A stretch of DNA of 64,000 bases, taken from the NCBI RefSeq assembly GCF_026015625.1, contig NZ_JAPDVG010000001.1, forward strand, positions 1,302,001 to 1,366,000, written 5' to 3'. Below the pieces are notes generated by a model. The model had not been told where the DNA came from and made no database searches. It worked only from the letters and a program-made list of their open reading frames with translations. The stretch's first letter is position 1, and each line of letters begins with the position of its first letter. Positions 53,021 to 59,452 of this stretch are shown piece by piece. The translations under genes and the position numbers were made by a program. Origin of the DNA: Segatella copri. Its GTDB lineage: Bacteria; Bacteroidota; Bacteroidia; Bacteroidales; Bacteroidaceae.

Positions 53021-53794
53021 ATGAAACTGAAAGCATATCATTCCATCCTCATCTTCACCATCCTTGTGATGTCTGCGGCATTCTCCAGCGTAAGCAACTA
53101 CCGCAAGGCACAGTATGCCATTGTACAAGATATGAACAAAGCTTTGGCTCTGACACTTCAGGAAAATAAATATCAATGGATTACGCCTGATACCATCCAG
53201 AGCTACCGCTCACATCTCAGCATCGACCTGCTGAAATCGACCAGTAATCTCTGCTATGTGATGGAAGACAGAAGAAGAGGCAAGAACAATTCCCAGCTGG
53301 TAAATAGCGCCAACCTGCTCAGCAGCAAAGAGATGCTTCTCAACGAGCATTCTATCCAAAGTTATGCTAACTGTTCGATGGCAGATGTTTTGAGTATGAG
53401 CAACCAGCGGACATCTTTGACGCTTACCCTCATGGCTATGATTTGGGCTATTGCATCGCTATACTATCATCGCAGAAAACAACCCTGGAATCATGAGGCT
53501 GATATGTTCGGCACCATGTGCTATTCTCAAGACGAGGATTCCTTCTACAATCAGGAAAACGGACAAGCCATCAAGTTTACTCCGATGCAGCACCAGCTGA
53601 TGCAACTCTTCTTCAACAATACGCATTATCAACTCTCCAAACAGGAGATTTGTGATGCTCTTTGGCCCAAGAAACCGGATGCCAGCGAAACGCTCTATAC
53701 CTTGATTCGCCGTATCAAACCGGTGATTGAGCAGAATAGCAACCTCATGATTGAGTCGGAAAGAGGCAAGTCTTACCGACTGATAATCAGATAA
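53021..53794 (+). CDS. Membrane-tethered regulator with C-terminal OmpR-type winged helix
   Basis: The protein has 257 residues. TM1 is at about 7-25, a periplasmic domain of about 105 residues follows, TM2 is at about 131-149 (TSLTLTLMAMIWAIASLYY), and then a basic juxtamembrane region and a cytoplasmic winged-helix domain (about 183-257: IKFTPMQHQLMQLFFNN..LSKQEICDALWPKKPDASETL YTLIRRIKPVI). There is no receiver or kinase domain. The polarity is the opposite of ToxR/CadC, which have the DNA-binding domain at the N-terminus. It is likely a one-component sensor of a periplasmic signal controlling the divergent barrel. Confidence 0.85.
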   Translation: MKLKAYHSILIFTILVMSAAFSSVSNYRKAQYAIVQDMNKALALTLQENKYQWITPDTIQSYRSHLSIDLLKSTSNLCYVMEDRRRGKNNSQLVNSANLLSSKEMLLNEHSIQSYANCSMADVLSMSNQRTSLTLTLMAMIWAIASLYYHRRKQPWNHEADMFGTMCYSQDEDSFYNQENGQAIKFTPMQHQLMQLFFNNTHYQLSKQEICDALWPKKPDASETLYTLIRRIKPVIEQNSNLMIESERGKSYRLIIR

Positions 53795-54592: not shown

Positions 54593-55390
54593 TTATTTGT
54601 CCGGCTCCAATTCCTCTATTGCACAAATGGCTTGTAGCTCGACCTTTTTAATGTGAGGATAAGTCTTCTTATAATTATCTGTCACATCTTTAAAGATACT
54701 CTCACCGTCACTATAGAATGTAGCCAAGACAACTGCTCTATAATCTTTGAAAGGCAACAAATACCAAACTTCTGTATTATCAGCATTTTGTTGGATGTTA
54801 AGAACTCCCTCCATACGAGTATTTCCTTCACTGTCAGTTATGGTAAGTCTTTTGGTTATAACACCAAAAGGATTATTAGTAGGTGTACGGAAAGTATAAT
54901 ATTTATAGAACTTGTCGTTCTCTATGGCATCGGCTGCGATAGCAGCGGAATCCTCGGAAGAAACGCCTTCAACTAAACATTTTCTATTTACCACATACAT
55001 CGTTCTATATATCTTCCAACGGGCAGTCCAATTTTTTACTTCTACCTTTAAGATAGCAGAGTTTCCGTCTGAGTCGGTTACGGTTATAGTAGCATTTCCC
55101 TCAGAAACGCCACTTACGTATATCTCCTTCTCAGACTCATTTGAAGAACACGAAACCTTGGCAACACTATCATCAGAAGAAGTTGCTGATACTTTGCCTT
55201 TAGCTCTATTAACATTCACCTTGCTGCCACTATCGGTATAGGTTGTAAGAGTGTTAATAACAATCTGCTTACCAGTAATTATATCACCGGTTACTTCGTC
55301 TTCAGTGAGCTGGATTCCAGAATCATCATCGCTACAACTTGCCAAACAAAGCAAAGCTGCTAATGCCATAAGAATCATTCTAATTTTCAT
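54593..55390 (-). CDS. Lipoprotein with Ig-like (Big_2) domain
   Basis: The protein has 265 residues. A lipoprotein signal peptide with lipobox CLASC is followed by a bacterial Ig-like domain (KGKVSATSSDDSVAKVSCSSNESEKEIYVSGVSEGNATITVTDSDG). The C-terminal half (WTARWKIYRTMYVVN..) is of unknown fold. It is probably surface- or outer-membrane-anchored. It lies upstream of nothing obvious, but in the same direction as the methyltransferase and the sigma-barrel fusion. Confidence 0.78.
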   Translation of the reverse strand: MKIRMILMALAALLCLASCSDDDSGIQLTEDEVTGDIITGKQIVINTLTTYTDSGSKVNVNRAKGKVSATSSDDSVAKVSCSSNESEKEIYVSGVSEGNATITVTDSDGNSAILKVEVKNWTARWKIYRTMYVVNRKCLVEGVSSEDSAAIAADAIENDKFYKYYTFRTPTNNPFGVITKRLTITDSEGNTRMEGVLNIQQNADNTEVWYLLPFKDYRAVVLATFYSDGESIFKDVTDNYKKTYPHIKKVELQAICAIEELEPDK

Positions 55391-55490: not shown

Positions 55491-56303
55491 CTACAAGAGA
55501 GTATTACTTTCCGTATTGCTCAAATTCAATATGTACCAACAAGAAGTAGTGAAGAAATTCCTTGCATACTTAATTTTCCAAACAAAACGAGGCAACAGCG
55601 ATGGAGTAAGCTGGAACTTCTGCTTATAATGAGGATTGATAAACCAAAACTTCTTGTCAACAACAGAGAATTCACATCTTTTTATCAATTTTTCAAATAA
55701 CTCTATACTTGTTCTGCACTCTTTTATGCTCATCAGCTCGCTTATAGTACCATCTTCCTCTTTGCATAGTTTCAATAATGAATTATACATAGAGTTTGGT
55801 AGCAGATGTATGAACGGAAAGTGCGAACAGAGTTTGCTTCGGCAAATCTGTTGATGTCCACCAAACGGCATCTGCCATGCAGGGAATCCGACAAAGAGAA
55901 CGCCTGTTGACTTTAGAAAACTTTTGAGGTGTAACAGAAATTCTCCTTTCGTTGGAACATGTTCTATTACATCATGTAATAGAATCACGTCAAACTTTTC
56001 CTCTTCATTGATTGGCGCAAGGTATTTCATAAAGTCGCAACACACGAATGTGGCATTTTCGCAGATTTCCGAAAAGTATGCTTTCGCATCTATTATTCTA
56101 CATTCAGCTATGTCTATTCCAGTAACTCTACAGCCAAGTTGGGCAAAGGGAACTAAATTACCTCCTTCGCCACAACCCACCTCTAATACTCTACTTTTCG
56201 AAGTCAACTTTTTGAAAGTTGACAAGTAGCTGATGTAAAACTCTTTAGATGTAATTTCCAAATCATGGAAGTACATCCTTCTATCTGTATGTCTTTTCTG
56301 CAT
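55491..56303 (-). CDS. Class I SAM-dependent methyltransferase
   Basis: The protein has 270 residues. Motif I LEVGCGEGGN (about 40-49) and the following acidic strand end (GIDIAECRI) bind AdoMet; the post-motifs VILLHDVIEHVP match ubiE/tylF-like methyltransferases. The C-terminal part (WKIKYARNFFTTSCWYIL) is of unknown role. Its DNA is AT-rich compared with most of the window. The substrate (a small molecule or glycan) cannot be told. Confidence 0.85.
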   Translation of the reverse strand: MQKRHTDRRMYFHDLEITSKEFYISYLSTFKKLTSKSRVLEVGCGEGGNLVPFAQLGCRVTGIDIAECRIIDAKAYFSEICENATFVCCDFMKYLAPINEEEKFDVILLHDVIEHVPTKGEFLLHLKSFLKSTGVLFVGFPAWQMPFGGHQQICRSKLCSHFPFIHLLPNSMYNSLLKLCKEEDGTISELMSIKECRTSIELFEKLIKRCEFSVVDKKFWFINPHYKQKFQLTPSLLPRFVWKIKYARNFFTTSCWYILNLSNTESNTLL

Positions 56304-56376
56304 ATCTATATAATGTTTTGACCTTTATCATATAGATACAGATTTGCCAAAAAGACTGCATGCGAAAAGAGACTTT

Positions 56377-58113
56377 TTACCAAGAGAACCTTATTCCAAA
56401 CGGAACGGTAAATGTGAATGGACGTTCTGTCCAAACATTCTTAATACAGCTACCATTCGGAATGTACCAATTCATGGTTGGCTCTATAAACAGATTCAGA
56501 TTTGGTGCAAACTGATATTGGATTCCGATGTTTGCATTTACAGACCATTGTATCGGGAGCGTCAGTTTCCAATCTGTTGTGTATGCAGACTTATCTTCAA
56601 CGATATAATCTGCATCAGTTTTTCCATATATAGGAATCAGAATACCAGTGCCTACAGAACCATAAGTTGACAATCTCTTGAACTTCATAAATTGATAAGA
56701 CAGTTTGAAAGGAACACCAAGATAGTGGAGCTTTTGTTCCTTGTCAACACGATAGCTGCCAGTACCAAGAATGAGATATGATTTCAGATAAGAATATTGA
56801 AGTCCTGTCTCTAAACTCCATCTTTTACCTATGTTTTTATTTACAGCAATGCTCAATGTTATTGGCTTGTCATGATGTTCTACTTCTACTATTTCTCCAC
56901 TATTGTGGTCTGCAATATCTGCCATGGCTACATTTTCTGTAGTAGGGTCTGCCTGGGATATGCGATGTAGCTCTTTTGCATAGTCTTCCCATGTCGTGAA
57001 ATACTTCTCAGCAGGGTTGATTGGGTCTGTTGGCTGGTCCGGACCAGAAGGCAAATCATTAGTAATATCGTTACTTTTCATAAACTTACATACACTCTGT
57101 ACAAGAGTCGTACCCAAAGAACCTGCAGCCAGTAATTGCCACTTATTCCTTTTGTGAACCTCAATATTTTCTGTAATCCATGATTCCTTATAGAGATTAG
57201 GGGCGATGATAGAATCTTTTACCAAGATACTATCAGTTCTATTTACAGCAAACTGCTTTTCATCTTGCAATGTATCTGTTATATTTGCAATTATATTATG
57301 TTTTATTTCCGTTGTGTCATCACGCATTGCTGCTATTGTCTCTATGGTTAGTATCTTGTGATAATGAGTACATGGATTCTGCTTTGGGGTACAGTTTGTA
57401 GAGTCAACATCGTTCTTTGATGCTGGACTAACTGAACCTTTTATTTTACGTCTGCGTATTATATTGGTATCATTTTCTGAAATAAGCTGTTTTTTGGTTA
57501 TAAGTTGCTTATATACAGGAATAATGATGAGAACCAATACCATAATTAGTATTGTTCTCTGGCTCAATTTGTTTCTCAACAAAGCCTTAGCTCTCGCTAA
57601 TTGCGAAGAAGAACTGTGTGGAGCTATATCAAGCAACTTTGCAATTTCCTGATGAGACAAACCATCTAGCACAGAAAGCTTGAATACCTTTTTGTATCCA
57701 ACTGGTAATTTATCGATTTCAGCCATAATATCCTCGTATTGGATAGAAGATACTGTATTTCTACAATCATCACAGCTGTCAATCACACTTTCATCTATGT
57801 CTGATAAAGAAATATACCTAAATGTATTACCCTTTTCTTTGTATTTTAATGCAAGATTAGAAGTTATACTTGTAAGCCATTGACCGAATCTGTTAGGATT
57901 CTTCAAATCTTTCAAAGATACAAGCGCTAGTATAAATGCATCTTGGACAAGATCATCTATGACATCCTTGTCCTCTTTAAGAATATTGATACATATACCT
58001 TTCATTTTAGGATAATATATCTGATACAATGTGCTGAAAGCACTTTTATCTCCTTGTTTTGCTTTAAATACTAAAGTTTGTATATTTGAATCCATGAGTA
58101 TATTATTTTGCAT
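56377..58113 (-). CDS. ECF sigma factor fused to an outer-membrane beta-barrel
   Basis: A single uninterrupted frame of 578 residues. Residues 10-95 are sigma region 2 (KAKQGDKSAFSTLYQIYY..DVIDDLVQDAFILALVSL), 128-182 region 4 with helix GLSHQEIAKLLDIAPHSSSS, and 188-205 a transmembrane helix (ILIMVLVLIIIPVYKQ). A periplasmic linker of about 120 residues follows, then from about 325 a strand (WQLLAAGSLGTTLVQS) and barrel strands from 416 (DKPITLSIAVNKN.. RWSLETGLQYSYLKSYL) to ..FTFTVPFGIRFSW, with the terminal aromatic typical of outer-membrane proteins. Described Dma proteins join an anti-sigma domain to such a barrel; here the sigma factor itself is fused. It would be tethered and need release by proteolysis. 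An alternative start is Met7 (58095). Confidence 0.85.
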   Translation of the reverse strand: MQNNILMDSNIQTLVFKAKQGDKSAFSTLYQIYYPKMKGICINILKEDKDVIDDLVQDAFILALVSLKDLKNPNRFGQWLTSITSNLALKYKEKGNTFRYISLSDIDESVIDSCDDCRNTVSSIQYEDIMAEIDKLPVGYKKVFKLSVLDGLSHQEIAKLLDIAPHSSSSQLARAKALLRNKLSQRTILIMVLVLIIIPVYKQLITKKQLISENDTNIIRRRKIKGSVSPASKNDVDSTNCTPKQNPCTHYHKILTIETIAAMRDDTTEIKHNIIANITDTLQDEKQFAVNRTDSILVKDSIIAPNLYKESWITENIEVHKRNKWQLLAAGSLGTTLVQSVCKFMKSNDITNDLPSGPDQPTDPINPAEKYFTTWEDYAKELHRISQADPTTENVAMADIADHNSGEIVEVEHHDKPITLSIAVNKNIGKRWSLETGLQYSYLKSYLILGTGSYRVDKEQKLHYLGVPFKLSYQFMKFKRLSTYGSVGTGILIPIYGKTDADYIVEDKSAYTTDWKLTLPIQWSVNANIGIQYQFAPNLNLFIEPTMNWYIPNGSCIKNVWTERPFTFTVPFGIRFSW

Positions 58114-58191
58114 AATTTATCTATATATAGATATGAAACCAGCATGAATACTGCACGAAAAATTGTTAAAGAACATAAAAGCGCTTGATTA

Positions 58192-58249: not shown

Positions 58250-59452
58250 ATGGCACTTAAGTTATATCCATTAGGCATACAGACTTTCGAGCGAATCCGC
58301 AAGGAAAACAAGCTCTATATCGACAAGACGGAATACGTTTACCGCCTGACTCACACCAGCGGTACCTATTTCTTCTTGGGACGTCCACGCCGCTTTGGAA
58401 AATCCCTATTTCTAACCACCCTCCAGAGTTACTTTGAAGGCAAGAAAGACTTATTCAATGGTCTTGCCATCGAAAAGCTGGAAAAGGAGTGGACAGAATA
58501 TCCTGTGCTCCACTTTGATTTAAGCGGAGGCAAACACATGAATAAAGAACAGCTGGAGAGATATCTCGCATTCATTCTGGAAACAGAAGAGAAGATATGG
58601 GGTATCACACAGCCACAAATTGATGCCAATAACCGATTGACAGAACTAATCAATACTGCATACGAGAAATCCGGAAAACAGGTAGTCGTACTTATTGATG
58701 AATATGATGCACCCATGCTGGATGTGGCTCACGAGAAAGAACAATTGGATACCTTACGCAATATCATGCGCAACTTCTTCAGTCCTTTGAAATACAGCGA
58801 AGCAAAACTGCGCTTTGTCTTCCTGACAGGCATCACCAAGTTCTCGCAAATCAGCATCTTCAGCGAACTGAACAACATCACCAACATATCCATGAATGAT
58901 GACTATGCTGGTATCTGTGGCATCACCAAAGAAGAACTTCTGATGCAGATGTCGGAAGATATTGAGGAGCTTGCCCGAAGAAGAAACATAACGAAAGAGC
59001 AAGTAATCGACAAGTTGAAAGAGAATTATGACGGCTATCATTTTACAAGATTCTCACCTGATATCTTCAATCCATATAGCCTGCTGAATTGCTTTGCTGA
59101 AAACAAGTTCGGATCCTATTGGTTTACTTCCGGCACTCCAACTTATCTCATCAATATGATGCGCAAATATCAGGTAGTTCCTACAGACTTCATCACACGA
59201 GTGGAGGCTGATGCCAGTGAGTTTGATGCTCCTACGGAGAATATGCCAACCATCATGCCGCTGCTTTACCAAAGTGGATATATCACAATCAAGGAATATC
59301 ATGAAGACTACAACTATTACGTTCTTGATGTTCCTAACAAGGAGGTAGCAGATGCTCTTCGTCATATTCTCTCTGCTTACAGACTATCGGTCGGCATCAA
59401 CTTCGACAGTAAAACTGGGAATATCGAAAATTGGATAATCAAAAAAGCATAA
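58250..59452 (+). CDS. AAA-ATPase of the DUF1703 type, nuclease core deleted
   Basis: The protein has 400 residues. The ATPase half is intact: P-loop GRPRRFGKS near 45, Walker B VVLIDEYDAPM near 150 and TGITKFSQISIFSELNNI. Compared with the 528-residue paralogue at 14907-16493, about 110-130 residues are missing after ..VLDVPNKEVADAL. The end ..SVGINFDSKTGNIENWIIKKA resembles the closing strand of the C-terminal nuclease, so an in-frame internal deletion removed the PD-(D/E)XK catalytic core. The product can be made, but it has no nuclease. Alternatively the last 30 residues are unrelated. Confidence 0.82.
   Translation: MALKLYPLGIQTFERIRKENKLYIDKTEYVYRLTHTSGTYFFLGRPRRFGKSLFLTTLQSYFEGKKDLFNGLAIEKLEKEWTEYPVLHFDLSGGKHMNKEQLERYLAFILETEEKIWGITQPQIDANNRLTELINTAYEKSGKQVVVLIDEYDAPMLDVAHEKEQLDTLRNIMRNFFSPLKYSEAKLRFVFLTGITKFSQISIFSELNNITNISMNDDYAGICGITKEELLMQMSEDIEELARRRNITKEQVIDKLKENYDGYHFTRFSPDIFNPYSLLNCFAENKFGSYWFTSGTPTYLINMMRKYQVVPTDFITRVEADASEFDAPTENMPTIMPLLYQSGYITIKEYHEDYNYYVLDVPNKEVADALRHILSAYRLSVGINFDSKTGNIENWIIKKA

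Follow-up and report, generated by a model that had tools for sequence, protein, structure and literature searches.

A Dma3-type sigma factor joined to a predicted outer-membrane barrel in Segatella copri, and its promoter-like elements and likely target gene

Dma3 of Bacteroides thetaiotaomicron carries its sigma factor as its own N-terminal domain (PMC13088901, 2026). The Dma3 locus, bt_2778-2779, is induced in dma1 and dma2 mutants, and in B. thetaiotaomicron the vesicle phenotype of those mutants persisted when dma3 was deleted (PMC13088901). Dma1 and Dma2 are described as proteins with a transmembrane (TM) helix, a long tether, and a C-terminal barrel; their sigma factors (Das1 and Das2, of group ECF21) are encoded by separate genes, and the barrel proteins begin with an anti-sigma domain. 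A comparable arrangement is found in P. vulgatus, where the gene after a sigma gene encodes an anti-sigma factor that has a predicted outer-membrane barrel, and where a toxin activates the pair (PMC9308784). Under the toxin, the sigma gene rose 33-fold and the O-antigen became longer, with envelope stress as the suggested signal (PMC9308784).

Covalent control of sigma factors is also known in other forms. In IutY of Pseudomonas putida (ECF243) and in ECF52 and ECF53 of Actinobacteria, the sigma factor is joined to a membrane segment, and IutY is activated by proteolysis via Prc and RseP (PMC8999054). These proteins have an anti-sigma part or a zinc finger, and the available text mentions no outer-membrane barrel for them (PMC8999054). 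In the one-component sigma factors ECF41 and ECF42, an extension of the same chain likewise regulates the sigma factor, but the extensions are soluble (SnoaL_2 and TPR).

Here, we analyzed a 64,000-nucleotide stretch of Segatella copri DNA (the window) that encodes a sigma factor, a TM helix, a linker, and a C-terminal barrel in a single frame. As in the window, Dma3 is a Dma-family protein with an N-terminal sigma domain and no separate ECF21 sigma gene adjoining it, as far as the available part of that report describes it (PMC13088901), and the window protein, likened to Dma3 by this description, is a Dma3-type member. The fused architecture was thus already known, and the novelty implied by the initial annotation fails (PMC13088901); its account of the anatomy, the barrel, and the missing anti-sigma gene is supported below. 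The available description of Dma3 makes no mention of a promoter element, a missing anti-sigma domain, or an enzyme cassette (PMC13088901), and we found no sigma-barrel fusion besides Dma3 in the open-licence papers covered by our searches. As far as the covered papers go, the missing anti-sigma domain, the apparent single origin, the promoter-like pair, and the exchangeable putative target enzymes reported here are new.

Anatomy and conservation of the fused gene

The features of the locus are collected in Table 1. The chain is read as an extracytoplasmic function (ECF) sigma domain followed by a membrane helix, a disordered linker, and an OmpA-like barrel, with helix, tether, and barrel assigned by prediction only. 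The sigma domain scored above the cut-off of the NCBIfam sigma70-ECF superfamily and matched SigW/sigmaE by sequence. The position of the TM helix agrees in relatives of the window protein; the structure model places a helix at residues 165 to 211, with low confidence from residue 186 on. Confidence is also low through the linker (pLDDT below 50 for residues 201 to 369) and for the full-length model as a whole (pLDDT 62, pTM 0.40), so the arrangement of the domains cannot be read from the model. For the C-terminal part, models and a structural match point to an OmpA-like barrel across residues 320 to 578, in line with the barrel after residue 320 that had been proposed from the sequence. In the alignment of fused proteins, the terminal W is invariant and the barrel core is conserved, as is the first loop.

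Table 1. Features of the fused locus in the window.
Feature	Coordinates	Strand	Basis and remarks
Lipoprotein-like gene (by eye) with Big_2 domain	54593..55390	-	After the methyltransferase gene; possible further operon member
Class I SAM methyltransferase gene, predicted target	55491..56303	-	Pfam; conserved position
Promoter-like element TGCAGT-N16-TATCTA between fused and methyltransferase genes	56333..56360	-	No mismatch
Fused sigma-TM-linker-barrel gene, Dma3-type	56377..58113	-	578 aa; likely true start 58095 (residue 7), giving 572 aa
Predicted OmpA-like outer-membrane barrel	56380..57156	-	Residues 320-578, last residue W; models and structural match
Two predicted helices, first barrel loop	56908..56991	-	Residues 375-402; conserved W375, Y378, L382
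Linker, presumed periplasmic	57157..57495	-	Residues 207-319; variable in alignment, low-confidence
Transmembrane helix	57496..57552	-	Residues 188-206, immediately C-terminal to sigma region 4; hydropathy
ECF sigma domain, regions 2 and 4	57556..58089	-	Residues 9-186; Pfam, NCBIfam
Promoter-like element TGCAGT-N16-TATCTA before fused gene	58128..58155	-	No mismatch

A protein search with the window protein scored 1,518 homologues at E values up to 0.001, the best 120 of which were listed. The window closely matches S. copri: L001 (strain Indica) is 98% identical across the whole protein. From the search listings, 100 larger regions were picked and fetched, and 99 of these were analyzed; together with L002 and the window, the 99 form a set of 101 loci, of which 57 have the fused gene, 39 have separate sigma and barrel genes, and 5 were set aside. 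The latter are L174 and four interrupted fused copies (L140, L144, L150, and L151), in which the gene is divided into two frames each. Among the 57 fused genes, L145 runs off the end of its contig and does not enter the trees, and in L078 a TGA close to the start shortens the gene.

The 57 genes read in one frame extend down to about 30% identity, and the initial claim of sigma regions 2 and 4, a TM helix, a linker, and a C-terminal barrel in a single frame is borne out by them, with barrel and topology as predictions. An assembly or gene-call artefact, for which the interrupted copies and the TGA in L078 might speak, is refuted for practical purposes by the identical frame in 57 genes and many clusters, and a frameshift or misjoin in the window was rejected on the same ground.

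The distribution of the fused gene was surveyed in several genome samples. In a genus sample of 150 genomes, 57 gave a match at E values up to 1e-30, split barrels included; 41 matches in 35 of these genomes span residue 17 or earlier to residue 578, one of them with an internal TGA. In the genus around G395, 10 of 61 genomes carry the fused gene, as a single frame in all ten. An order-level sample of 295 genomes (E limit 1e-40, up to four candidates scored per genome) yielded fused frames in at least G001 and G664 and an interrupted one in G153, and a phylum-level sample of 395 genomes (E limit 1e-30, up to three candidates per genome) yielded them in at least G001 and G156, again with the interrupted G153. 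Fused genes are thus rare beyond the family level in these samples, the counts being lower bounds. Five plasmid records matched, none with 80% query coverage in one place. Three of the matches, in a plasmid-filed set from Parabacteroides, Bacteroides, and Phocaeicola, lie over a sigma gene and a porin/barrel gene, like a split das-dma pair (NZ_OY725762.1, 46071-47855; NZ_OY725958.1, 59253-61037; and the unannotated OY726030.1, 13710-15514).

Relation to split das-dma loci

The barrels and sigma factors of the split pairs are homologous to those of the fused proteins. In the split loci, the barrel gene comes immediately after a sigma gene, with an overlap or gap of at most 31 bp in 36 of 39. 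The split barrel proteins begin with an anti-sigma-like segment, followed by a TM helix and tether, which agrees with the published das-dma layout. The window protein begins with a sigma domain, not with the anti-sigma domain of the Dma1/Dma2 type, and in all 57 fused proteins the start of the helix window falls within 5 residues of where the sigma profile ends (-5 to 5). A TM helix directly after region 4 leaves no room for another cytosolic domain.

An anti-sigma profile was built from 38 split proteins, with L143 left out, and applied at an E threshold of 0.001. It gave no match in the fused or nearby genes of the 57 fused loci, where the best hit was at E 0.32 (a 473-aa frame in L067), and it found all 38 training proteins. 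Because those 38 are its own training set, and because it does not score the odd cases L143 and L174, only the zero in the fused loci is informative, within that limit, and a diverged anti-sigma domain could still lie elsewhere. The earlier statement that no anti-sigma gene adjoins the fused gene therefore holds as far as this profile reaches. Unlike the membrane-bound sigma-anti-sigma fusions of the IutY/ECF52 type, the window chain has no anti-sigma domain by this Dma-type profile, and neither the junction of region 4 with the helix nor the neighboring genes of the fused loci revealed a hidden one.

Five frames of 619 to 647 aa were candidates for fusions that retain the anti-sigma domain along with the barrel. 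They are split pairs (L195 to L199) in which the dma frame is open upstream through the das gene. A different fusion may exist in L174 (3104-4327, minus strand), where one frame of 407 aa encodes a Das-like sigma domain together with a TM helix and linker and has no barrel; by eye, the segment between sigma domain and TM helix resembles an anti-sigma domain.

Trees of both domains were computed quickly and without bootstrap, with roots for drawing only. In the sigma tree, which contains no other ECF groups, a branch with SH-aLRT 99 sets the 56 fused sigma domains apart, next to the split sigma factors of L106 and L107 (support 90). The barrel tree recovers the same fused group at 98, plus a split row on a long branch inside it (L143, 4894-6912, minus strand), a barrel protein with an unusual N terminus. 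The possibility, raised against the first reading, that sigma factor and barrel are always separate genes is thus realized only outside the fused group, in the 39 split pairs, and the fused form is one conserved group.

L106 and L107 have the split order das-dma-methyltransferase, with the same kind of methyltransferase and the promoter-like element both before das and before the methyltransferase gene. This gene order and the two elements make them look like the state before fusion, and a split arrangement of this kind appears to be the ancestral one. The simplest reading of the sequences is one fusion event with loss of the anti-sigma domain. S. copri G001, the 3.9-Mb relative to which all genome-wide statements for this species refer, also has a split sigma/Dma-like pair elsewhere (L099, 4257-6282, minus strand). 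Near-identical repeats in succession make up the tether of this pair, and no strict form of the element was found upstream of the pair.

Promoter-like elements and adjoining enzyme genes

Two copies of a promoter-like element, one before the fused gene and one before the methyltransferase gene, are present in the window. With one mismatch allowed, 0.35 elements would be expected in the window, and 5 of 100 shuffles reached two. Across the fused loci, the element takes the form TGCAGT(C)TTT...TATCTA. A first, strict version matched only 20 of 57 loci because the -10 part and the spacer differ between groups: a TATCTA-like box follows TGCAGT after about 16 to 17 bases in many loci and varies by group (e.g., GGACTAT or ACTCCTT). 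Counts were therefore made with TGCAGT alone and, coming from related loci, are not independent. On the coding strand, 48 of 56 fused genes have TGCAGT in the 120 bp upstream, 38 of 57 have it in the 90 bp downstream, and 35 have both; the corresponding controls gave 0 and 1 on the other strand and 1 and 0 for the letter-reversed word, against expectations of about 0.05 and 0.04 per window. Six of the 57 loci have TGCAGT in neither test window, and in L078 it lies 109 bp from the called start of the open reading frame (ORF). Other genes in the same loci, cassette genes included, have it upstream in 68 of 704 cases. Among split das genes, 12 of 38 are preceded by TGCAGT, a further likeness to the fused loci; the element thus in part predates the fusion.

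Genome scans place the element mainly at the fused loci. G001 has three TGCAGT-N16-WATCTA sites (control, 0): one before the fused gene, one between the fused and methyltransferase genes, and a third inside a 791-aa ORF. A stricter pattern, which misses the upstream site of the window itself, was present in 20 of 22 fused-positive genomes, with 38 sites, 32 of them at fused loci (control, 2). These genomes were hand-chosen, mainly from the window's part of the tree, which was the source of the pattern. The figure of 20 of 22 therefore does not test the pattern independently; what is informative is the placement of the sites across each genome. Among 22 genomes in which no fused gene was found, two of which (G006 and G012) carry split pairs, the pattern occurred in four, at one site each (control, 0). 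Six off-locus sites were examined for a wider regulon. Three lie inside frames longer than 100 aa with no next frame found, one lies inside a frame that is followed by a short one, and one precedes an 884-aa frame. Only the site in L180 (G220, contig 219) precedes a methyltransferase gene, a second one several hundred bases away and apart from the fused gene; the fused locus of that genome has a radical-SAM cassette instead of a methyltransferase. Taken together, the sequences suggest that this sigma family probably reads the element, a conclusion that does not extend to silencing of the sigma factor by tethering.

The genes next to the fused gene belong to recurring sets. Of the 57 loci, 21 have a homologue of the window's methyltransferase close to the fused gene, 20 of them on the same strand, and 17 of these 20 start in the interval from 37 bp inside the fused gene to 107 bp past it. 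In 20 of 57, always on the same strand, a radical SAM/SPASM enzyme is paired with a Gfo/Idh/MocA-type oxidoreductase. The two sets of loci do not overlap, and 16 of the 57 have neither (one member of each family was assigned by Pfam and the others as BLAST homologues). By sequence, the adjoining genes are exchangeable enzymes, either a methyltransferase or a radical-SAM enzyme plus oxidoreductase, and we suggest that their products modify an envelope molecule. Four fused loci have homologues of a gene whose match to the FUT8 fucosyltransferase is weak and falls below the cut-off, three of them on the same strand, and eight have a small lipoprotein-like gene. For the genus around G395, three loci were tabulated: the methyltransferase gene is next to the fused gene in L102 and L103 and not in L097.

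Within the window, no separate cognate sigma gene adjoins the fused gene. A PF09820 AAA-ATPase-like gene (58250-59452, plus strand) is divergent from it and shares its upstream region. A 257-aa protein with a C-terminal winged-helix Trans_reg_C DNA-binding domain is encoded at 53021-53794 (plus strand); by eye it has hydrophobic stretches near residues 8 to 26 and 132 to 148, and it is a possible membrane-anchored regulator near the fused gene.

Models for control of the tethered sigma domain

We consider it fairly probable that the window protein is a Dma3-type one-chain regulator whose sigma domain is likely inactive while tethered and is likely released by proteolytic cleavage, after which it would drive transcription of its own gene and of the methyltransferase gene next to it. 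Since the element precedes both genes, a surface signal would likely free the sigma domain to turn on both. The chain would be inserted via its helix, with the sigma domain inside and the barrel assembled in the outer membrane, and the tether would hold the sigma domain off, at the membrane. Upon damage to the envelope, faulty assembly of the barrel, or binding of a ligand at the surface, the linker would be exposed and cut by a periplasmic protease, and an S2P/RseP-type protease would then cut the helix. The freed domain would leave the membrane and bind RNA polymerase, the target enzyme would alter an envelope molecule, and autoregulation would provide positive feedback.

By analogy with described systems, proteolytic release is plausible. 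A gene of the S2P/RseP-type protease family was present in four of four genomes checked, which is permissive only. The 17-residue helix window contains a proline in 46 of 57 fused proteins versus 2 of 38 split proteins (in L079, it lies just outside the window), a feature that would suit intramembrane cleavage and is likewise permissive.

A bolder form of this reading, which we hold tentatively and put a little short of even chances, is that the sigma factor works without any anti-sigma factor. The bare covalent tether would be the whole switch, and the regulon would be roughly the gene itself plus one exchangeable envelope-modifying enzyme, making the locus a two-gene cassette that senses and remodels the surface. 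If the tether alone controls the sigma factor, this would be among the shortest paths from the cell surface to RNA polymerase and a case of an operon pair fusing and dropping its inhibitor; it might also supply a simple component for building surface sensors in gut commensals. With a promoter-like element, a likely target gene, and a likely ancestral split form named, the question is directly testable.

Release by proteolysis could also have a more specific trigger. It is possible, though we lean against it, that the signal is failed barrel insertion itself and not a ligand, such that chains lacking an assembled barrel would be cleaved in the periplasm and set the sigma domain free; new synthesis of the chain would then gauge outer-membrane assembly. 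The invariant terminal W and the conserved barrel core are consistent with this, as is the finding that the toxin that activates the split pair of P. vulgatus also induces many BamA-inhibition genes, with envelope stress as the suggested signal (PMC9308784). However, the first loop, which is also conserved and has predicted helices, fits a ligand site as well.

Alternatively, the membrane-bound sigma domain could be active without cleavage: it would never be cut, and barrel signals would change the reach or shape of the tethered domain at the inner membrane, as in ToxR. Region 4 runs straight into the helix with no spare cytosolic segment, and no cleavage site was identified, both of which favor this alternative. 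We nevertheless judge it unlikely, given that proteolysis activates IutY and is believed to activate ECF52 too (PMC8999054), and given the S2P gene and the proline described above.

Release of an active sigma domain, our preferred reading, presupposes that the domain still directs transcription. Residues 43, 74, and 141, invariant or nearly so in split sigma factors, vary in the fused proteins, as they would in a mere relic or anchor; these positions may instead have bound the now-lost anti-sigma domain, and a relic is very improbable because the core positions of region 2 are conserved, the region 4 segment HSSSSQL is near invariant in the fused proteins, and the matching element stays beside the gene.
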